In this document: piece by piece, positions 7,343 to 32,965 of the stretch
Position numbering within the stretch: position 1 is the stretch's first letter
Layout of the letters: every line of letters starts with the position of its first letter
Virus record (IMG/VR): IMGVR_UViG_3300007514_000040
Coordinates: 1-34,725 of that record
Length of the DNA stretch: 34,725 bases
Reading direction: 5' to 3' (one strand)
Origin: a virus
Translations under genes and position numbers: made by a program
Notes under the pieces: model-generated
The model's input: the letters and a program-made list of their open reading frames with translations, nothing else
Database searches by the model: none
What the model was told of the DNA's origin: nothing

Positions 7343-7565
7343 GGTCTTTCTCCATTTTTTCCCATGCGTTCGTGTCGACTCTTATTGGTTTGAACTCTTT
7401 ATTGGTCATGAACACAGTAGTATTTTCCCAACCTTTGAAAGCATTTTCTAATACAATTCTTGCCTTTTGAACTTCTTCATCAGAGAATCCATCTCCAACT
7501 AGAACAAGTATTCTTTTCATGTCTATATAATCGCCCTGTGGTTTATTAACGTTACTATTGGACAT
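7335..7565 (-). CDS. small protein with Rossmann-like core (76 aa)
   Basis: After a 15-residue polar N-terminus, MKRILVLVGDGFSDEEVQKA looks like a beta-alpha unit. A second ATG at residue 16 is possible. It overlaps the MCM stop by 11 nt and the phosphoesterase start by 8 nt. Not recognised; by position it may assist replication. Confidence 0.5.
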   Translation of the reverse strand: MSNSNVNKPQGDYIDMKRILVLVGDGFSDEEVQKARIVLENAFKGWENTTVFMTNKEFKPIRVDTNAWEKMEKDLE

Positions 7566-9372
7566 ATTCGTACATATCCTCTCCGTCGGCTTCTATTAAT
7601 ATACCTTCCCTTTGAAGAACATTAAGCAAGAACTGTGTTGCTATAACTTCAGTTTTAAACCATTTCTCTCCATCATCAACCATTTTCTCAACCAATTTAG
7701 GTAGGGAGAATCTATTATTAGTATCAGATATTGATTTTATACTCTCTAACACAAAGTCTTTTTTATTCGTGAAAACAGGAATTGTTGAAGCTGTAAACTC
7801 TCCTTGTGTTGACATACCGAAGGTTTCTAAACTATATCTGAATATCCTTATTGCTTCATCAACATCTCTTTCATCTACTTCATCACAAAATCTTAACTTT
7901 GCATGTGCAGTAGCCAATCTAATTAACCCTTCAAACCCCCTCATGTCTATTGCAATAGAATCACTTGGTTGCTCCATAGACCTAAGATTAACAAAGAAAT
8001 TCTCAAGTTTGTCCAATGCCACCTCGTTGAGTTTTGGTTCCTGTCTCTTACAATAGTTAATCAGTTTGGTCATTTCTTCTATTGAAAGAACTTCACAATT
8101 ATTTTTGTTTTGTCTTACTTTGGAAATATGTTTAAGTTTCTTCATATCCATATCTCTGTGTGCAATATCACGAACTAGAAATATCAAGTCAAATCTTGAC
8201 AGTAATGAATCAGGCATGTTGATATTTTGAGAGATGGATAATTTAACGTTATACTTTGAGGTTTTAGGGTTCGCTGCAGCAAGTATGACTGTCTCTGCAG
8301 GCATTGTAAGGTTTGACCCAATCTTGTTTAATGTTGCTGTTTGTTGCTCCATAGCTTCGTGTAATGCAGAACGGTCTTGATCTGCCATCTTGTCAATTTC
8401 ATCAATACATACACACCCACCACTACATAAAACAACCGGACCGGCTTTTATCACATTACGACCATCTGCTAATTTATCAACACCCATGACTAATCCCGCT
8501 GCTGAAGCAGAACGACCAAGTGCATACGCTGACTTGTTTGTAATCTTTAATACATATTTCAACAATCTGGACTTTGCTGTACTAGGGTCGCCAACCAATA
8601 ATGTGTTAATGTCGCCCCGTAGATCCCCAATACGTGATCCACTTACAAGGCTTAGAATTAAGGCTTCTTTCTCTTCCTTCAACCCGTAAATCTCTGGGGC
8701 GAAAGAATCAGTAAGTTTTGTGATCCAATCATCATTTAACATTTCTTTGAACTTTACTATTTCCTCTTCGGTTGGTAGTATGTCTTTACCCTCATCTATG
8801 GATTTTATATCCGCTACATCAAAAACAATACGATTAGTTGTTTTTTTCTTTACCGCTCTGAAAATACCACTAAGTATTTTATCCTGACCAATGTACACAT
8901 TCTTTGCATTATCTCCTGTAACTATTGCTTCAAGTGTCATGGGTGTCATATTAGAAGCCTGATCGAATGGTTCTTGAATGATTAATGACCTGATAAGTTT
9001 AACTTTACATAACGCTTCCATACGTTGCATTTTAACACTACAATCATTACACTTTGGAGCTTCAGGAACTTCTCTATTTTCATCAGCTTTAAACTCTATT
9101 TGACTGTTACAAATACGACATTGATAAACAACTAACTCATCAAAGTTTTCCAAGTCGCCCCTTGCAATAATTCTTGCTTGGAATGAACCTTGTTTGTTAT
9201 GCCATGTTTCATCATACTCGTTCATTTTCATATTGATAGGGTCGAATGGTCTAGAACTATCCCATTCATCTGTAACTTCAATACAATAATGACCTAATGC
9301 TTTACACTCTACAATTTCAAGTTTGTTATCTCCTTTGAAATGTTTACCACATTCAGTACAAAACCTATGCAA
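7555..9372 (-). CDS. mcm: MCM replicative helicase
   Basis: 605 residues. The hexameric 3'-5' DNA helicase of archaeal replication, here virus-encoded. N-terminal zinc sites (C5/C8 with C23/C30; C85/C88 with C108/C111) precede the AAA+ core. Walker A is GDPSTAKS at 261-268, Walker B CIDEID at 322-327, sensor 1 ILAAANP around N368, and the arginine finger is in LLSRFDLIF (R393). A winged-helix-like region closes the C-terminus. The start is TTG at 9372, overlapping the upstream RHH stop by 8 nt. No DNA polymerase or primase is seen in the window, so host enzymes may be used. Confidence 0.95.
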   Translation of the reverse strand: MHRFCTECGKHFKGDNKLEIVECKALGHYCIEVTDEWDSSRPFDPINMKMNEYDETWHNKQGSFQARIIARGDLENFDELVVYQCRICNSQIEFKADENREVPEAPKCNDCSVKMQRMEALCKVKLIRSLIIQEPFDQASNMTPMTLEAIVTGDNAKNVYIGQDKILSGIFRAVKKKTTNRIVFDVADIKSIDEGKDILPTEEEIVKFKEMLNDDWITKLTDSFAPEIYGLKEEKEALILSLVSGSRIGDLRGDINTLLVGDPSTAKSRLLKYVLKITNKSAYALGRSASAAGLVMGVDKLADGRNVIKAGPVVLCSGGCVCIDEIDKMADQDRSALHEAMEQQTATLNKIGSNLTMPAETVILAAANPKTSKYNVKLSISQNINMPDSLLSRFDLIFLVRDIAHRDMDMKKLKHISKVRQNKNNCEVLSIEEMTKLINYCKRQEPKLNEVALDKLENFFVNLRSMEQPSDSIAIDMRGFEGLIRLATAHAKLRFCDEVDERDVDEAIRIFRYSLETFGMSTQGEFTASTIPVFTNKKDFVLESIKSISDTNNRFSLPKLVEKMVDDGEKWFKTEVIATQFLLNVLQREGILIEADGEDMYEYVQ

Positions 9373-15899: not shown

Positions 15900-17597
15900 C
15901 TAATAATGCACTTCCTCTAATCCTAATATTACCTGATCTGCCCCAACAGAAGTTATTCCTGATTTAGAAGCCATATGTATATCCATTGATATAATTGAAG
16001 CCTTTACATTTAAGCCTGTTTGACTGTCAACAACACGACAGAATTGACCAAGTGGTACTCTAAGTGTTGGTGGAGACACCGTAACTTGAGAATAATGCCT
16101 TCTTTCTAAACCTAATACCTCTCCTGCATTGATTAACGCTTCTCTTGCAGAACCTTCTTCTTGACCCGCATTAAAGTTAACCACCTTCTCTCTTACACCA
16201 TATTTTGCCTTTGCCCTAGTATTTTCAAGAATAATATGTAAGGCTTTTTGTGAATAATCTCTAAATGAGAAACTACCTGTTGCACTTGACCAAGTATCTC
16301 CATCTGATGAAGTATAAAATGTACCTGTACCTGTTTGATAATCCATTGTAAAGTTATTACTACCGTCTCCATATTGGTTAACAACTATCATTAACGGTGT
16401 GTTTGGTTCTACGTTAATCTTTTCATCTAATGATATTTCTTCCCAAGCACCACTTGTTGTTAATCCTTGTATTCTTTTACTGTCAAGGACAATACTTTTC
16501 CTTAAATTATCCACCTTTGGTTTATTATTTGATGTATCAATACCTGTAATCTGAATTGTTGCAGGGGAAGTAGGAGTTCCTGTTTTTGCTATCTTTAATG
16601 CTATCTTACCAATATTATCTGTTGTAGGCGTAAATGGTATTCCAATCCATGATACGTTTGAAGCCCTCGTTGCATTTTCTGAACCAACCTTTGAAGTGTC
16701 TATTTTTACAGTGTTTGCACCTAATCCATGTAAGAAAGAATATGCACCATCATAAGATGAATCTCTCCATGATTGACTAGCGTTTATTAAATATCCAATT
16801 CTTGATGAATCCCAATTTTGTGATACTGATGAACTCAAGTCGTTTGTAAATAAGAATCCAGAATCCACACTGTTTGGATCTCTTAAGAATAAATCTCTAT
16901 CTGGGTCAACACCATACATTACATTACCACTAGATGATAATTCTGATAGAACTGTTGCATACGTTGCAAAATTTTTCTGTAAGTCAGGTAGTTTAACATC
17001 TACATCTTTAACACCCGTTGTTGTTATACCTAAATCATCATTTGTAAGACCATGATCTGCCTGATGATCATTATCTGTAACTACTTGTTTTACCAATTCA
17101 CTTACTTTGGTTGTGGTATTTGTATTATCTACAGTTACCCCATCTGCTGCCTTTCCCTGAAAACGCTTAATATTTGTAATTCTATCCCTTAATGTTACAC
17201 CCCAACCAATACAAGTTATGATTAATGTTTGCCTATTTGTAAATGGTCTTTGAATATCAACATCATAAATCTTACCATAAAAATATCGCTGAAGTAAAGG
17301 TTGTGATTTACCTAGATAAATCTGAATATCCCACTGTCTTTCAATCTTTGAATCCCTAAGCTTTGTAGTTGTATCAGTAAGGTTATTATCTCTATCATCT
17401 ATCTTTAATATTGCATATCCATAATCACTGTTTATACCACTATGTATTTGTAGTTCTGATAATGTAAAGTCCTGTTGTGGAGATACAGAAGCGGTTGTTA
17501 CTGTTGTTTCATATCTGTATTTCTCCGTTCCTGTTCTATCAGTTATGATAATCTTAGGACTAAGAGGATTAATATCGTAATTTGGTGTTAAGCTCAA
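15900..17597 (-). CDS. baseplate hub / tail-tip protein (565 aa)
   Basis: Order after the tape measure, plus N-terminal strands with LQRYFYGKIYDVDIQRPFTN and LIITCIGWGVTLRDR, suggest a gp27/gpD-like hub. A central insert (about 270-460) is a beta-sandwich carbohydrate-binding-like domain (IGIPFTPTTDNIGKIALKI). The end (PLGQFCRVVDSQTG, then GADQVILGLEEVHY) again fits a hub. The start is TTG, overlapping the tape-measure stop as TTGA. The family is assigned from layout and general pattern only. Confidence 0.55.
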   Translation of the reverse strand: MSLTPNYDINPLSPKIIITDRTGTEKYRYETTVTTASVSPQQDFTLSELQIHSGINSDYGYAILKIDDRDNNLTDTTTKLRDSKIERQWDIQIYLGKSQPLLQRYFYGKIYDVDIQRPFTNRQTLIITCIGWGVTLRDRITNIKRFQGKAADGVTVDNTNTTTKVSELVKQVVTDNDHQADHGLTNDDLGITTTGVKDVDVKLPDLQKNFATYATVLSELSSSGNVMYGVDPDRDLFLRDPNSVDSGFLFTNDLSSSVSQNWDSSRIGYLINASQSWRDSSYDGAYSFLHGLGANTVKIDTSKVGSENATRASNVSWIGIPFTPTTDNIGKIALKIAKTGTPTSPATIQITGIDTSNNKPKVDNLRKSIVLDSKRIQGLTTSGAWEEISLDEKINVEPNTPLMIVVNQYGDGSNNFTMDYQTGTGTFYTSSDGDTWSSATGSFSFRDYSQKALHIILENTRAKAKYGVREKVVNFNAGQEEGSAREALINAGEVLGLERRHYSQVTVSPPTLRVPLGQFCRVVDSQTGLNVKASIISMDIHMASKSGITSVGADQVILGLEEVHY

Positions 17598-19207
17598 GTT
17601 ACAACCCCCGTACTTTGTGCTTCAAGTCTTAGTTGAAATAATAACATATCAGAAAGTGTTTGTTCTCCTTGTGCTTTATCTCTTAAAACTTTCAATGCTT
17701 CTTGTTGTGATAAACCTAATCCTTGATCTCTAAATTGTTTCACTTTTGCTTCCTCTGCTGCAATCCTAGCTGATATACTTGCTGCTAATGCTCTTGCATT
17801 GTTTTCTGTTTGTTTTACAAGCCAACCTAAATGTATATCCCTGCCTCTATCAAACGCTTCTCTACCATAATTTGAAACTTGAGAATTATGTGAATTTGCT
17901 AATGATTCAAACGCTGCATGATCTTCTTCTGTTATGGCAACACCTCTATATCTTGCAACAATTCCATGTCCATTACCACCTGTTCTCACTGTTCTATTTT
18001 GGTTTTGTTCTTTGTTCCAAGTTGCTCTACCTAATGCTTGTGCTGCTGCATGACTTCTTGCCATAGCACCTGTAGCTTCTCCATACACAACATTTCTGTA
18101 ATATGATTGACCTTGTGATACTGCCAAGTTTGCTGCACCACCTACGCCTGCTGCTAACAGTTCTTGTTGGAATGATATTCCACCACCTAATACACCTCTT
18201 GAATCTCCAAACGCAAGTTGTCTTTTTCTTGCTTCTTCTTCTCGTGCTTTAAATGCTGAAATTGGTATGTTAACTTGTCTTGTTTTCATTGTTTGTGATA
18301 TAGGATCCCAATATTGTTCTTGTTCTGTTATAACATCTCCAACGGGTAATAACTCGCGACCTAAGCTGGTTTCAAGGTATAGATTTCCGCCTTTTTCCAC
18401 AACCTTACCACCTTCTGTAATTGCTTTGAATCTAAGTTGTTGTTCTTTGTTTATTGCATTAGTACCACGTTGTAACATCATGGCTTGTTGTAATTGTGCT
18501 ACACCTGATTTCTTATATTTATCTTGAAGAAGTTCTGTACTTATTACACCATCATGTATTGCACTAGGTAGCCTTCCGAAAGCAGTTGTTATTCCAAAGT
18601 TTAATCCTTTTTTAGCAAGTTTGAACTCTTCTTTTTGTTTTGGTGTTAACACTTCTTCTGCTACAACTTGTGTTAAAACGTCAAAGTATCTTTGTGCTAA
18701 AGCAGGGTCGGATTCTTTATATTGTGATATTTTAGATTCTAATATTTTTGTCTTTTCTTTATTTCCCATTGAATCGTAAATTGCAAGTCCTTGAGCAGTA
18801 AATGGATCTGCCATAGCCATAAATGCGTTCAAGTCAGGTGTTGGTTGTTGTTGTGGTTGTGTACCTAATGTAGAAGGATCAAAGACTACACTTTTTTGTT
18901 TTGCGTCCACACCTTGCATTACAGCACTTGAAAATGTTGTATCTGATGTGAATGTGAATCCTTGTGATTTTTGTTTTAGTTTTTCGCCTTCTTGTTCTGT
19001 AACAGGTTTTACTACACCACCGCCTCTTGCAGATATAGCAGTTGGAGCTGAAGTAGTTGGACTTGAAGTTGGTGCTGCTTGTGGTTTTGCTGTTTGTGGT
19101 ACACCTTGTTCTGATGGTACTTGTACACCACCACCTGTTGAACCTGTTGCAAATCCTGCAGGACTTGTTCCTGTTACTGCTTGGGGGCTAGTTAAGCCCC
19201 CTAACGA
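17594..19207 (-). CDS. tape measure protein, C-terminal part (-1 frame)
   Basis: Open for 537 codons in the -1 frame relative to the 19201-20298 gene. The first 96 codons (to 18919) contain no ATG, GTG or TTG start yet read as a protein-like Pro/Thr/Ser/Gly linker (PSEQGVPQTAKPQAAPTSSP). So I infer it is reached by frameshifting and yields a fusion of about 901 residues. An independent start at ATG 18919 (MQGVDAKQKSVVFD, 441 aa) cannot be excluded. The rest is Gln/Ala-rich and helical (ALAASISARIAAEEAKVKQF), fitting the inside of a tail tube. Confidence 0.6.
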   Translation of the reverse strand, partial: SLGGLTSPQAVTGTSPAGFATGSTGGGVQVPSEQGVPQTAKPQAAPTSSPTTSAPTAISARGGGVVKPVTEQEGEKLKQKSQGFTFTSDTTFSSAVMQGVDAKQKSVVFDPSTLGTQPQQQPTPDLNAFMAMADPFTAQGLAIYDSMGNKEKTKILESKISQYKESDPALAQRYFDVLTQVVAEEVLTPKQKEEFKLAKKGLNFGITTAFGRLPSAIHDGVISTELLQDKYKKSGVAQLQQAMMLQRGTNAINKEQQLRFKAITEGGKVVEKGGNLYLETSLGRELLPVGDVITEQEQYWDPISQTMKTRQVNIPISAFKAREEEARKRQLAFGDSRGVLGGGISFQQELLAAGVGGAANLAVSQGQSYYRNVVYGEATGAMARSHAAAQALGRATWNKEQNQNRTVRTGGNGHGIVARYRGVAITEEDHAAFESLANSHNSQVSNYGREAFDRGRDIHLGWLVKQTENNARALAASISARIAAEEAKVKQFRDQGLGLSQQEALKVLRDKAQGEQTLSDMLLFQLRLEAQSTGVVT

Positions 19208-19210
19208 AAA
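19183..19210 (-). promoter_or_regulatory. candidate -1 frameshift site with stem-loop, tape measure
   Basis: mRNA sense: GAT TTT CGT TAG. Four U residues (19210-19207) allow the Phe codon to slip back one base. After a 5-nt spacer, a perfect 7-bp stem (GGGGGCT / AGCCCCC, 5-nt loop TAACT) starts at the G of the UAG stop. No U-tract follows, so it is not an intrinsic terminator. Confidence 0.55.
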
Positions 19211-20298
19211 TCCGCCAGTACGCCTGAACTTTTAAGTATCTCTGCTTGTGTTCTAATTAATGATAATTTTTGTTGGAAAGTTTCAGCATTATCTATTGCA
19301 TTTTGTAATCCTTTTACCATGACTCTAGTACCGTCAGGTATTTGGTTTTTCATTGTATCTGCTGTAGATTTTAATGATGAATCTAAACCTGTTACTGCGT
19401 CAGTTGTTGTATTTAATTCAGATTCAACTTCTTCTAATGCGTCGGACATTCCGAATATTCCTCTGCCTATCTCATCTAATGAACCAAAGACTTTACCTAA
19501 GTGCATATCCCATGTTGCTAATAATGTAGTTACACCAGCTATTGCCCAACCCACCGGACCGAGTGCTAAATACAAACCTCTAACTGCACCAGTTAATGTT
19601 CTTGTAGCAAACGCTTTTGCGAGTTCAGCTCTGCCTGCTGCTGTCATTACTGCGGGTATCATGGCTGTTTTTGATAACAAACCTGTTGTTTGCCAATTCA
19701 ATCCTTTTTGTGCAGCAGTTAAACCCGCTGTACCAATCCCTGCCATTTTCATAGCAGATATTGTAGTACCTAATGATACTGCTACGTTTAATAAGTTAAC
19801 ACCAAATAATATATAAACATCATTAAGTTTTGATTTTTCAATTCTAAGTTTTTCTAATTTTGCTGTATGATCTGCTGTTGCGGTTCTTAATTCATTTTGT
19901 AAGTTTAATGCTTTTTGTGAGTTTCCTAAACCTTTTGCTACTAATTCATCATATCTTAATTGTTTAGCATTAAGTAAATCTTGAGCTCTTGCCACACCAA
20001 TATGTGCAGTTGCTACTCTGTGTTCTGCTGAAGCTAAGTTTGTAAATGAGGTATAAGTTTGGGCTGCTGAAGTTGTAACGTTAAGCATACCCTGTGCCAT
20101 AGTTTGAAAGCCAACTGCGCCTGCTGCTGCTTGATCTCCCATACGACCAGCTTGTGTGCCTGTTTGTTGCATGGCATTTCCTGCTGATCTAACTTTACGT
20201 TCGGTTTCTCCAATCTTTTGATTAAAAGATACAATTTTACCTGTTGCTTTATCAATATCTATGGATATTGTTAGCCTAGAAATCTCGTTACGTGCCAT
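19201..20298 (-). CDS. tape measure protein, N-terminal part (365 aa)
   Basis: Sets tail length and may help DNA entry. Starts MARNEISRLTISIDIDKATG, then coiled-coil (residues about 30-160: KVRSAGNAMQQTG, LDVRYD-like heptads, LEKLRIEKSKLND) and hydrophobic segments around 165-195 and 240-262 (LYLALGPVGWAIAGVTTLLA). Position between the chaperone and hub genes supports the call. Alone it is short for a tape measure; the -1 frame downstream stays open for another 537 codons. A TAGTTCCC element lies 34 bp before the ATG. Confidence 0.75.
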   Translation of the reverse strand: MARNEISRLTISIDIDKATGKIVSFNQKIGETERKVRSAGNAMQQTGTQAGRMGDQAAAGAVGFQTMAQGMLNVTTSAAQTYTSFTNLASAEHRVATAHIGVARAQDLLNAKQLRYDELVAKGLGNSQKALNLQNELRTATADHTAKLEKLRIEKSKLNDVYILFGVNLLNVAVSLGTTISAMKMAGIGTAGLTAAQKGLNWQTTGLLSKTAMIPAVMTAAGRAELAKAFATRTLTGAVRGLYLALGPVGWAIAGVTTLLATWDMHLGKVFGSLDEIGRGIFGMSDALEEVESELNTTTDAVTGLDSSLKSTADTMKNQIPDGTRVMVKGLQNAIDNAETFQQKLSLIRTQAEILKSSGVLADFR

Positions 20299-20332: not shown

Positions 20333-20968
20333 ATTTGCTTGAGCTCTTTTAATCCATTGACCTGTTCTTCTACGTCTTCCAAGTCTTCTTTTGAACTGTT
20401 TTCTACCTGTTCTAGCCCTAACCATTGTGATTTTACCCCTTCCTCGAAGGCTAGAAACTTTAGTTCCTGTAAGACCTACGGTTTTTGTAAGGTTTGAGGT
20501 TTTTGGTACACCACCTGTTGTTGAAATATGATTAAATAATCTGTTATGTTTCCTCATCTGAACGTGCATGACATCTTTCATAATTTTATCTAGTTGATTT
20601 ACTACATGTATAATATGTGGTCGTGGTTGTGTACCCATGTGATCTACTTCCTTTCTGAATATTCCGCCAAAAGACAGAAAATCTGTTGATTTTGCTCTAA
20701 TTTTATGTGGTCTAGTACCATTCTCTAACCAATTAAATAAATCAGGCATGCTTGTATCTATAACAATAAACTTTGCACCCCTCTGAACAACTGTCCATGA
20801 GTTAGCATACTCTCCTGTATCTTTAGGAGCAGCCTGTTTAATCATTTTTAATGTTAAATTTTCTAAAATTTTAAGATATTCTTTCTCATAACGTGTCTTT
20901 GCTTTCTGTAATGACATAAGCTTTTGCTTATACTCTTTAATTCCTGTCCATTTAATTCCGCTAGCCAA
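20330..20968 (-). CDS. HK97 gp10-like minor head/tail protein (212 aa)
   Basis: Residues about 15-75 (LKMIKQAAPKDTGEYANSWT, then VVQRGAKFIV) match the PxxTGxLxxS pattern of HK97-gp10-like tail-completion proteins. The C-terminal 50 residues are strikingly basic (GRKQFKRRLGRRRRTGQWIK), a likely DNA- or capsid-binding tail. The start is TTG (TTGGCTAGC), overlapping the stop of the frameshifted chaperone. Placement between the chaperone and tape measure is unusual, since gp10 homologues normally come before the tail tube gene. Confidence 0.55.
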   Translation of the reverse strand: MASGIKWTGIKEYKQKLMSLQKAKTRYEKEYLKILENLTLKMIKQAAPKDTGEYANSWTVVQRGAKFIVIDTSMPDLFNWLENGTRPHKIRAKSTDFLSFGGIFRKEVDHMGTQPRPHIIHVVNQLDKIMKDVMHVQMRKHNRLFNHISTTGGVPKTSNLTKTVGLTGTKVSSLRGRGKITMVRARTGRKQFKRRLGRRRRTGQWIKRAQAN

Positions 20969-21233
20969 CTCTATGTGAATTACGACTATCTTGTTCTTGT
21001 AAAGTATTTATGATTTTTTGAACTGTGCCTAATTCAGTAAGGAATTTTTCGCCATATTTGTCTTTAATGTCTAATACATCACGTAAGCTCCCAAAACCTA
21101 GATTGATAGAGTTAAGAATTAAGACTATATTCTTTAGTTCAGGAAAGTCTTTGAACGCCTCTAGTCGTTCTTTTGGATCTCCTTCGTAGCAATAGCGAAC
21201 TGCTTCGCCAAAGCGGTCGACCCAAATTTTGTT
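20961..21233 (-). CDS. tail assembly chaperone, -1 frame extension (gpGT-like)
   Basis: 90 codons open in the -1 frame from the slippery site, beginning NKIWVDRFGEAVRYCYEGDP and ending DSRNSHRVG. There is no ATG in the frame. With the first 98 residues of the upstream frame it makes a 188-aa fusion. This is the classical tail assembly chaperone arrangement of long-tailed phages, where a small fraction of ribosomes shift to make the longer form that guides tail-tube assembly around the tape measure. Confidence 0.8.
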   Translation of the reverse strand, partial: NKIWVDRFGEAVRYCYEGDPKERLEAFKDFPELKNIVLILNSINLGFGSLRDVLDIKDKYGEKFLTELGTVQKIINTLQEQDSRNSHRVG

Positions 21234-21526
21234 AAAAAAACAAACGTAGAAGCTGCTAATTCTCTTAATTCCCCTTCTGTGAGATTATCTATATCATCTT
21301 TTTTAAAGTCTTTTAATCCTAGTGGTAATACTGTGTTATACCATTCATCTTCGAGTTTTTCCATATCATCTTGTGATATACTCTCAACACCTTTCTCTTC
21401 TAATTCAGAGTGTTTTTTTCTAAGATCCCTTATTACTTGTAAATCTTTACGTGTTACTAATTCTCTAAACTCATAAATGAGGTCGTCGCGGACAATAACC
21501 TTGCCGTTTTCTAAATCAACTTCCAT
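21161..21526 (-). CDS. tail assembly chaperone, short form (gpG-like, 121 aa)
   Basis: Starts MEVDLENGKVIVRDDLIYEF; acidic, helical and of the usual size and position (between tail tube and tape measure). Codons 96-98 are GTT TTT TTA, holding the slippery U UUU UUA. The zero frame continues 23 residues further to its own stop (KEIQKND). A TTATAAA box at about -27 and an AT-rich 21-mer abut the ATG. Confidence 0.75.
   Translation of the reverse strand: MEVDLENGKVIVRDDLIYEFRELVTRKDLQVIRDLRKKHSELEEKGVESISQDDMEKLEDEWYNTVLPLGLKDFKKDDIDNLTEGELRELAASTFVFLTKFGSTALAKQFAIATKEIQKND
21231..21241 (-). promoter_or_regulatory. canonical -1 frameshift slippery site U UUU UUA
   Basis: mRNA sense G TTT TTT TTA AC; the heptamer T TTT TTA is at 21239-21233, in the correct zero-frame phase (codons 97-98). 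Downstream, GCGAA-GCAG-TTCGC can form a small hairpin. The shift opens a 90-codon extension. Confidence 0.8.
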
Positions 21527-23499: not shown

Positions 23500-23640
23500 A
23501 TGCAAATTTTATTACAACAAAACAACATAAAATGGCTAGGAGATATGGAAAGATATGTGTATAAAACAGGCGATTTTATGGAAGAATTTGATTTTATTGC
23601 AACAATACTCTTACGTCAAGTACGTCAATCTTTGGAATAA
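23500..23640 (+). CDS. possible antisense micro-gene (46 aa)
   Basis: On the + strand, inside the - strand late block: starts MQILLQQNNIKWLGDMERYV and ends RQVRQSLE, overlapping the 3' end of the metzincin gene by 47 nt. A TTATATT box lies about 26 bp upstream. The composition is protein-like, but an open frame of 46 codons can arise by chance in AT-rich DNA. Confidence 0.25.
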   Translation: MQILLQQNNIKWLGDMERYVYKTGDFMEEFDFIATILLRQVRQSLE

Positions 23641-24424
23641 ACCATTCCAAACTTTCTATTTTTTTACCTACAAATAAGGGATTTGGTTTACCCCACCCGT
23701 CTTCTCCATATAGTTGAACTATTCCATATACATCTCTAGGTTGTATTTCCATATAAAAATCTGTAAATGGATCAAAAACAGGGTGCATTACACTCTTAAT
23801 TTCGTTTGATTTATCTGTATTCCAATGGTGTAGTAATCCTACTGCATGTCCATACTCATGTTTTACTATATGATGAATATCAGAATCAGGCACTCTAACT
23901 GATTTTAATACTATTTCTATATGATCTCCATCTTGTATTACACCCAAATCAATATTAAGTGATTCTTTATCTATTGTATTTGAGAATACTACTATATGTG
24001 AATATTTGTGTTTTGACCAACTATGATTAAAATAATTAAATCCTAATGCACTGTTGTTTACAATCTTACCATCATTATGTTCTTCAAATGTTATAAAAAT
24101 ATCACAATTCATAAAATCATGAACTTCTTTATCTACATGATCTTCCCATTCATATACATAAATTGGGATATACCAATCTCCACCCGTTGCTCTAGTTAAT
24201 GTGTTTTCCCATTCCTTCACACCTGTGAATACTGCATTAAGTTGGTTTGAATTAAAATAATCTTCATCATATTCGGGTTCAAATATACAAGTTACAGGAT
24301 TGTCATTATATCTAATATTTACTGCGTCAAAATAATCTGCAAAAGCAGCTTCCATAGTTACACCAATCATTAGTCCAACCATAGCAAATGCTAAGAAAAA
24401 AAGGAGAATGTATAGGTATTCCAT
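23594..24424 (-). CDS. membrane-anchored metzincin (matrixin-like) metalloprotease
   Basis: 276 residues. N-terminal hydrophobic segment (about 3-22, YLYILLFFLAFAMVGLMIGV) is a signal peptide or membrane anchor. The zinc site HEYGHAVGLLHH (189-200) is the full metzincin HExxHxxGxxH signature, the Met-turn SVMHP follows at 211-215, and PRDVYGIVQLYG is the matrixin C-terminal helix. It should act outside the cell membrane, perhaps on the S-layer during entry or release. It follows two small membrane proteins. A TATA-like TTATATAAA lies about 24 bp before the ATG, without the TACTTCTC element. Confidence 0.85.
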   Translation of the reverse strand: MEYLYILLFFLAFAMVGLMIGVTMEAAFADYFDAVNIRYNDNPVTCIFEPEYDEDYFNSNQLNAVFTGVKEWENTLTRATGGDWYIPIYVYEWEDHVDKEVHDFMNCDIFITFEEHNDGKIVNNSALGFNYFNHSWSKHKYSHIVVFSNTIDKESLNIDLGVIQDGDHIEIVLKSVRVPDSDIHHIVKHEYGHAVGLLHHWNTDKSNEIKSVMHPVFDPFTDFYMEIQPRDVYGIVQLYGEDGWGKPNPLFVGKKIESLEWFIPKIDVLDVRVLLQ

Positions 24425-32247: not shown

Positions 32248-32366
32248 TGAGTATTCAACCATGTCCTAAATGTAAGGCTACTAAAGGTTGGGAATGGATT
32301 TGGGGTAAAAATGATGGACATTCTACAGGGTATTCCAAATGTAAGGGTTGTGGTGCTAAGTTTTAA
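32247..32366 (+). CDS. zinc-ribbon micro-protein (39 aa)
   Basis: Starts MSIQPCPKCKATKGWEWIWG and ends KCKGCGAKF: a CPKC/CKGCG zinc ribbon about 30 residues long. TAATG overlaps with both the previous and the next gene firmly fix its limits. Probably a nucleic acid-binding or adaptor protein. Confidence 0.7.
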   Translation: MSIQPCPKCKATKGWEWIWGKNDGHSTGYSKCKGCGAKF

Positions 32367-32965
32367 TGGACGTTAGAATTATCCCTAGAGAACAGGCTAA
32401 ACCATTCGTTGAGAAACACCATTATACTCAATCATTAGGTAAGGCTTCTCTAATTACAGGTATGTTTCAAAAGGACATTCTAGTGGGTGTAATCACTTTT
32501 GGTCAAGTCAGCGGTAGGCTTTTAGCCCAATCTATCTGGGAAGGTGGTAATCAATCAAACACCTTTGAGTTTCTTAGAATGTGTGTCTTAGATGAATGTA
32601 TAACACCTAGAACCTTTTTTATCTCAAAGTCCATTAAAATACTTAGACAGAAATTTCCACAAATCAAATGTTTGGTGTCTTTTGCAGATCAAACAGAAGG
32701 TCATATTGGTACTGTATATCAGGCTGCTAGTTGGTTATATTGTGGTCAAACAGGACGTAAATACCACTATATAAAGGACGGAGAAAGGGTCAATAAAAGG
32801 GTGGTTTGGGATCTATCAAAGAAAGAGGGTCTAAAAGAGAAAGAATGTGCAGATAAGCATGGGTATGAAAAGGTTCCTGAATTACCTAAATTTAGATATG
32901 TTTTTCCTTTAAAGCCTGTAAAACTGAAATTAAAGGTTTTAGATTATCCTAAGAGTGCTACTTAG
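32366..32965 (+). CDS. Mom-like DNA modification protein (199 aa)
   Basis: Resembles the phage Mu Mom family, a GNAT-like fold that alters adenines in viral DNA and protects against restriction. Seen: HHYTQS at 18-23, LVGVITFGQ, FEFLRMCVLDEC, SKSIKILRQKFP and the signature FADQTEGHIGTVYQAASWLY (106-125), with YCGQTG after it. The basic C-terminal extension is poorly conserved. It is the last gene of the + strand unit. Family call is good; the exact chemistry is not shown by the sequence. Confidence 0.75.
   Translation: MDVRIIPREQAKPFVEKHHYTQSLGKASLITGMFQKDILVGVITFGQVSGRLLAQSIWEGGNQSNTFEFLRMCVLDECITPRTFFISKSIKILRQKFPQIKCLVSFADQTEGHIGTVYQAASWLYCGQTGRKYHYIKDGERVNKRVVWDLSKKEGLKEKECADKHGYEKVPELPKFRYVFPLKPVKLKLKVLDYPKSAT

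Follow-up and report, generated by a model that had tools for sequence, protein, structure and literature searches.

A Conserved Candidate −1 Frameshift Signal in the Tape Measure Gene of Viruses With Probable Thaumarchaeal Hosts

The Locus and Its Viral Context

The stretch of DNA considered here (the window) is an IMG/VR virus record of 34,725 nt, IMGVR_UViG_3300007514_000040. It encodes a terminase, a Mu-like portal, a major head protein, an HK97-gp10-like protein, and an MCM replicative helicase (7555-9372, minus strand), the last of which fits an archaeal host. The structural genes include a tail module in which a putative tape measure gene, whose product would set the length of the tail, is followed directly by a gene for a baseplate-like protein (Table 1). 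Each of these two proteins has only one match in the phage collection, to Nitrososphaera phage Pro-Nvie1, in which gene 21 carries the annotation putative tail tape measure and gene 23 that of putative baseplate protein; the 365-residue tape measure product of the window is 23.5% identical to the former. Identification as a tape measure gene rests on its position between the chaperone/tail-completion and baseplate genes and on this relation to gene 21, while the helical layout of such a protein is supported by a low-confidence structural model only. Pfam and PHROGs recognized none of the tape measure, C-terminal, or baseplate-like proteins, and no near DNA match to the window was found in the phage collection.

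A thaumarchaeal host, probably among the ammonia-oxidizing archaea, appears likely. Because two contig scans of GTDB genomes revealed no relative, this assignment is inferred only from the Pro-Nvie1 match and the MCM helicase. Two further genes of the window may be recorded in passing. A Matrixin-like (Peptidase_M10) protein with an HExxHxxGxxH motif and an N-terminal hydrophobic segment is encoded between the capsid and tail genes (23594-24424, minus strand), and a similar gene occurs in a related virus (L002:926-1714). On the strand opposite the structural genes, 32366-32965 (plus strand) encodes a Mom-family protein (Pfam PF25680, E 4e-43), which could be a DNA-modification gene with an anti-restriction role.

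Table 1. Features of the tail module in the window (positions are those of the window).
Feature	Position	Strand	Basis
Zero-frame short isoform, putative tape measure protein, 365 aa, ends ...LADFR*	19201..20298	-	ORF
Slippery heptamer G_GAU_UUU (GGATTTT; codons 363-364, Asp-Phe)	19207..19213	-	Sequence; homologous heptamers in 24/25 other genes
Spacer CGTTA, 5 nt	19202-19206	-	Sequence
Zero-frame stop TAG, one codon past the heptamer; its G is base 1 of the stem	19201..19203	-	Sequence
Putative stimulatory stem-loop GGGGGCT-TAACT-AGCCCCC, perfect 7 bp, 5 nt past the heptamer	19183..19201	-	Fold; covarying hairpins in relatives
−1 frame continuation: Pro/Thr/Gly linker and C-terminal region, 537 codons + TGA	17594..19207	-	Same region zero-frame in all relatives
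Baseplate-like protein, directly downstream; TTG start overlaps the −1-frame stop	15900..17597	-	22.7% identity to putative baseplate protein of Pro-Nvie1
gpG-like tail assembly chaperone, 121 aa, same tail module	21161..21526	-	Position; conserved ORF pair
U_UUU_UUA slip heptamer, gpG/gpGT-type	21233..21239	-	Conserved in 12/12 viruses examined
−1 open frame with gpT-like chaperone extension, ends ...HRVG*	20961..21284	-	Conserved ORF pair

The Junction Within the Tape Measure Gene

The zero frame of the tape measure gene (20298-19201, minus strand) terminates in GCG GAT TTT CGT TAG. The −1 frame continues across the same place as GGA TTT TCG TTA GGG GGC TTA ACT AGC CCC CAA and stays open between about 19228 and a TGA at 17596-17594. 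Its earliest ATG, GTG, or TTG lies at 18919, 96 codons past the slip site. The stem is formed by pairing of 19201-19195 with 19189-19183 around a TAACT loop. A ribosome shifting at the heptamer would join 364 zero-frame codons to 537 codons of the −1 frame, giving a 901-aa fusion with the predicted junction peptide ADF followed by SLGGLTSPQAVTGTSPAGF. A preliminary description, made from sequence alone, had set out the placing of the stop codon, the 5-nt spacer, the perfect 7-bp stem, a −1 frame open to 17594 with 96 start-less codons, and a product of about 901 aa; each of these held.

The hairpin is exceptional within its own genome. None of 2,859 coding windows sampled from that genome folds as stably as the 36 nt that follow the heptamer, and no other among 750 in-frame slip-like sites has so strong a downstream hairpin. 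Relative to 1,000 synonymous recodings, the hairpin gives z −5.1 (p 0.001). A search of the window for a second copy of the junction palindrome found none, and an Rfam search of the window returned no match. The junction is identical in a second IMG/VR contig, 3300008740_000043, which differs from the window at one of 11,095 bases (99.99% identity), and whose reads have not been established to be independent of those of the window.

A separate frameshift signal is present in the gpG-like chaperone gene of the same tail module. The chaperone matches no Pfam or PHROG family, and its U_UUU_UUA site is interpreted, by inference from sequence and with frameshifting unmeasured, as an archaeal counterpart of lambda gpG/gpGT. 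That the tape measure site might itself be this chaperone frameshift could be ruled out, as it lies inside the tape measure gene and the true gpG/gpGT site is found elsewhere (Table 1).

Conservation of the Signal in Related Viruses

The tape measure, baseplate-like, and major tail proteins served as queries in scans for relatives, and 25 other distinct tape measure genes remained once duplicates were removed. The N-terminal region of the window protein is homologous to that of all of them. In every one (25/25), the reading frame runs unbroken across the region homologous to the window break, and the Gly/Pro/Thr/Ser linker is read in frame; the second half of the window gene therefore belongs to the same protein. 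Complete proteins measure 680-1171 aa, with a few genes running off their contigs. An N-terminal tree places the window as sister to L002/L003 (100/100), followed by L010 (99/97), nested inside the set, and the reversed frame of the window is therefore derived.

At the homologous point (aa 325-370), 24 of the 25 relatives have an NNT TTT in frame and, 5-6 nt beyond it, a GC-rich hairpin, so that with the window the combination is found in 25 of 26 distinct genes. The in-frame U4 is invariant in all genes that bear the signal. The most common heptamer among the relatives is G_GGU_UUU (13 genes), with A_AAU_UUU in three (L016, L039, and L051) and G_GAU_UUU, as in the window, in two (L040 and L041); weaker forms occur in L002, L043, L044, L047, L052, and L056. 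The stems vary widely and include GCCCTC/GAGGGC, GCCTCC/GGAGGC, GGGTGG/CCACCC, GGGC/GCCC, GGGCAGT/ACTGCCC, and GCCCATCAAC/GTTGGTGGGC, among others; the hairpin of L016 has only 4 bp. The remaining relative, L010, is without the U4/hairpin signal and has instead a run of nine A residues at aa 367 (L010:4224-4232), the only run of eight or more in the examined pieces of its contig, with both other frames stopping soon after.

The preliminary description had proposed conservation of stem and frame in relatives as a check. The signal is conserved as described above, but in the relatives it is the zero frame that encodes the full-length protein, and a −1 slip in most of them would lead to an immediate stop and a short form of about 350-370 aa. 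The window is accordingly a role-reversed member of a conserved system inferred to make two isoforms, which had been missed. An outcome named in advance as refuting, namely relatives that lack the linker and in which a second gene starts at MQGVDAK, was not seen; the linker is present and no relative starts there.

As a separate observation, the C-terminal regions past the linker diverge far more than the N-terminal regions and the neighboring genes (e.g., L010:4300-6004 and L002:6140-7523), which suggests module exchange at the linker.

Tests of the Signal

The hairpin is more stable than expected from synonymous recodings at p<0.05 in 21 of 24 genes (median z −2.7), the exceptions being L002, L049, and L055. 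Mean folding energy is −13.1 kcal/mol at the site (n=23) compared with −3.7 kcal/mol at control NNT TTT sites in the same genes (n=81). A MAFFT alignment of all 24 signal regions left the stems out of register owing to differences in loop length, and covariation was for this reason counted on the 13 sequences of equal geometry. In these, six of the seven stem pairs have changed on both sides while 94.5% of pairs are maintained, a level reached by none of 500 shuffles and approached by no slid register. At least 14 distinct stems are present; arms are 100% paired with their own partners and 52% paired when swapped between genes, although the arms in this comparison were picked for complementarity.

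In 18 of 23 genes (not in L002, L043, L044, L052, or L056), the heptamer and the P-site codon begin with the same base, where 4.3 such genes would be expected from third-position usage; the same match is seen at 16 of 81 control sites. Such a match is expected under tandem re-pairing of tRNAs and not under a signal acting at the level of DNA or peptide. In 19 of 23 relatives, a stop is the very first codon met in the −1 frame; the figure for controls is 29 of 81 (36%), from which it is apparent that −1 stops are common by chance past NNT TTT. Where serine follows the phenylalanine it is encoded by AGT or AGC in 12 of 12 genes (AGY makes up 23% of serine codons overall), and where arginine follows it is encoded by AGG in 4 of 4 (AGG is 12% of arginine codons). 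With these codons, a stop falls in the −1 frame.

These five lines of evidence (recoding, control energies, covariation, P-site match, and −1 stop) agree in direction. The sequences are related, and the p-values consequently overstate their independence. The existence of the signal, its conservation, the covariation of its stem, and the arrangement of the frames are shown by these data.

Position of the Slip Site in the Protein

AlphaFold2 models were of low confidence (mean pLDDT 47 and 50) and were used only for the layout of helix and disorder. In the model of relative L037, the protein is helical to residue 350 and disordered from about 351 to 436, and the slip codons are 357-358. The signal is thus predicted, with low confidence, to sit at the border between a helical N-terminal region and a disordered linker, and the short form would therefore comprise the whole helical N-terminal region.

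Proposed Mechanism

The interpretation considered likely is that of a conserved programmed −1 frameshift in the tape measure gene that yields two isoforms, the roles of which are reversed in the window. Such frameshifting calls for an in-frame slippery heptamer, a structure 5-9 nt downstream, and conservation beyond amino-acid constraint, and all are met, the structure lying at 5-6 nt. A two-isoform system further calls for one outcome that stops at or near the slip site and another that is full length, which is likewise met. The second −1 signal in the same viruses, the classical U_UUU_UUA chaperone site, is counted as support. That frameshifting occurs, its efficiency, the ratio of the isoforms, and the action of both in tail assembly are all inferred, as protein, ribosome-profiling, and reporter data are lacking. 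The proposal of the preliminary description that the tape measure is completed by a −1 frameshift at the U4 beside the stem-loop is nonetheless strongly supported by the relatives, with frameshifting itself unmeasured.

In the proposed mechanism, the hairpin would stall the ribosome, and in a fraction of passages tRNA-Phe would re-pair from UUU to the −1 UUU. In most relatives, ribosomes that remain in frame would produce the full-length protein, and those that shift would usually stop at once to release the N-terminal isoform. In the lineage of the window, where UAG lies one codon past the heptamer and the C-terminal part is in the −1 frame, unshifted ribosomes would instead make the 365-aa protein and shifted ribosomes the 901-aa protein. 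Both isoforms would probably be needed, in a ratio that can accommodate the swap; tau and gamma of bacterial dnaX offer a parallel. An efficiency near 50%, with products at 1:1, is inferred only from this tolerance of role reversal, and the reversal by a one-base change itself rests on one viral population, represented by two contigs, the raw reads of which were not inspected.

A bolder reading, judged less likely than not, holds that tail assembly requires two tape measure isoforms at a set ratio maintained by −1 frameshifting, that a one-base change reversed their roles without loss of function, and that transcriptional slippage at the A9 run replaced the signal in one lineage. For example, and by analogy only, a mixed bundle of short and long forms could reconcile a tape measure of six chains with a baseplate hub of three-fold symmetry; in HFTV1 the tape measure protein is hexameric and the hub trimeric (PMC12494034).

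Alternative Explanations

The break in the window could stem from a single base wrongly assembled or sequenced, or from a deletion that has lately inactivated the gene; the virus would then have either an ordinary single-frame gene or a broken one, and the split would have no function. In favor of this, each of the 25 other genes is one ORF, the split is confined to one lineage, and strong stems can provoke sequencing errors. It is considered unlikely, since the separate contig has the same junction (with the reservation about its reads given above), the break falls exactly on the conserved signal with heptamer, spacer, and stem intact so that slippage could rescue it, and the −1 frame remains open for 537 codons. 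Were an assembly error to be demonstrated, the role reversal would be lost and the conserved signal unaffected.

Alternatively, the hairpin might act without frameshifting: for instance, it could make ribosomes pause between two protein domains, govern the stability of the mRNA, or, at the DNA level, mark a place where C-terminal modules are exchanged. Its placement exactly at the boundary between N-terminal region and linker, and the much greater divergence of the C-terminal regions, would suit such roles. They are nevertheless improbable, as they leave unexplained the in-frame U4, the P-site match, the AGY/AGG −1 stops, and the reversed frame of the window. Against the recombination version in particular, stem sequences differ among viruses, and hence there is no shared recombination sequence.

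Transcriptional slippage at a homopolymer, as in Thermus thermophilus dnaX, finds some support in the nine A residues of L010 at the homologous place, with both other frames stopping soon. As a general explanation it is very unlikely, because slippage is known at runs of nine (PMC5009743), far longer than the four T residues here, and what is conserved is a hairpin lying downstream at a distance typical of ribosomal signals; for L010 alone it remains possible. Two separate genes, encoding the 365-aa protein and a 441-aa protein from the ATG at 18919, which does open an ORF of that length, are likewise very improbable given that the 96 codons upstream of this ATG are open, start-less, and encode a linker that the relatives have in frame.

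Comparison With Known Systems

The frameshift arrangement favored here resembles that of bacterial dnaX, in which one gene yields two products (tau and gamma) with a common N-terminus by way of a −1 slip heptamer and a 3′ stem-loop. In Escherichia coli dnaX the −1 frame stops one codon later, whereas a few bacteria make the long product by frameshifting and have the zero-frame stop directly past the site (PMC5009743). The A9 run of L010 recalls the transcriptional slippage of Thermus dnaX. The present genes differ in encoding a virion protein of viruses and in a heptamer that ends in UUU, where that of dnaX ends in AAG. Homology to dnaX was considered and not upheld, this being a tail gene by its relation to Pro-Nvie1, and the likeness is in working only.

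The preliminary description had placed the slip site outside the canonical X XXY YYZ pattern and suggested that it might be a new variant. This did not hold, as G_GAU_UUU_NNN_UAG matches the site of pea enation mosaic virus (PEMV) RNA 2, an umbravirus: G_GAU_UUU_UGG_UAG in PEMV RNA 2 and G_GAU_UUU_CGU_UAG in the window share the heptamer, a UAG 3 nt on, and a 3′ structure. G_GGU_UUU, the commonest form among the relatives, is among the most shifty heptamers on mammalian ribosomes, and in PEMV RNA 2 a change of the stop to a sense codon sharply affects frameshifting. The PEMV RNA 2 and dianthovirus sites differ in belonging to eukaryotic plant RNA viruses, in serving a polymerase product, and in their structure and long-range pairing. 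The window site does not constitute a new slip-site class; it is the gene and the probable host group that are new for it.

Frameshifting by −1 in the tail module is shared with phage lambda gpG/gpGT and with the haloarchaeal viruses HVTV-1 and HCTV-1, -2, and -5, such frameshifting being known or predicted in archaeal hosts. In those systems the signal lies in the upstream chaperone gene, whereas here the tape measure gene itself contains it. Pro-Nvie1 has a tape measure gene with a homologous N-terminal region and homologous neighboring genes, but the product measures 594 aa and a search of the gene for a U4 run gave none.

Significance

Tail-module frameshifting has been known from the gpG/gpGT chaperones. 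A second conserved signal, situated within the tape measure gene and predicted to yield two isoforms of its product, has no counterpart in the literature searched, which covered few subscription journals and described no tape measure isoforms made by frameshifting. A gene arranged like that of the window would be called broken or split by annotation. The signal adds well-conserved −1 candidates for archaeal (probably thaumarchaeal) ribosomes, for which few cases have been reported. If the sequence of the window is right, its role reversal is natural evidence of frameshifting efficient enough to supply a probably essential structural protein, and the arrangement raises a testable claim as to the number of tail-ruler forms present in each virion.
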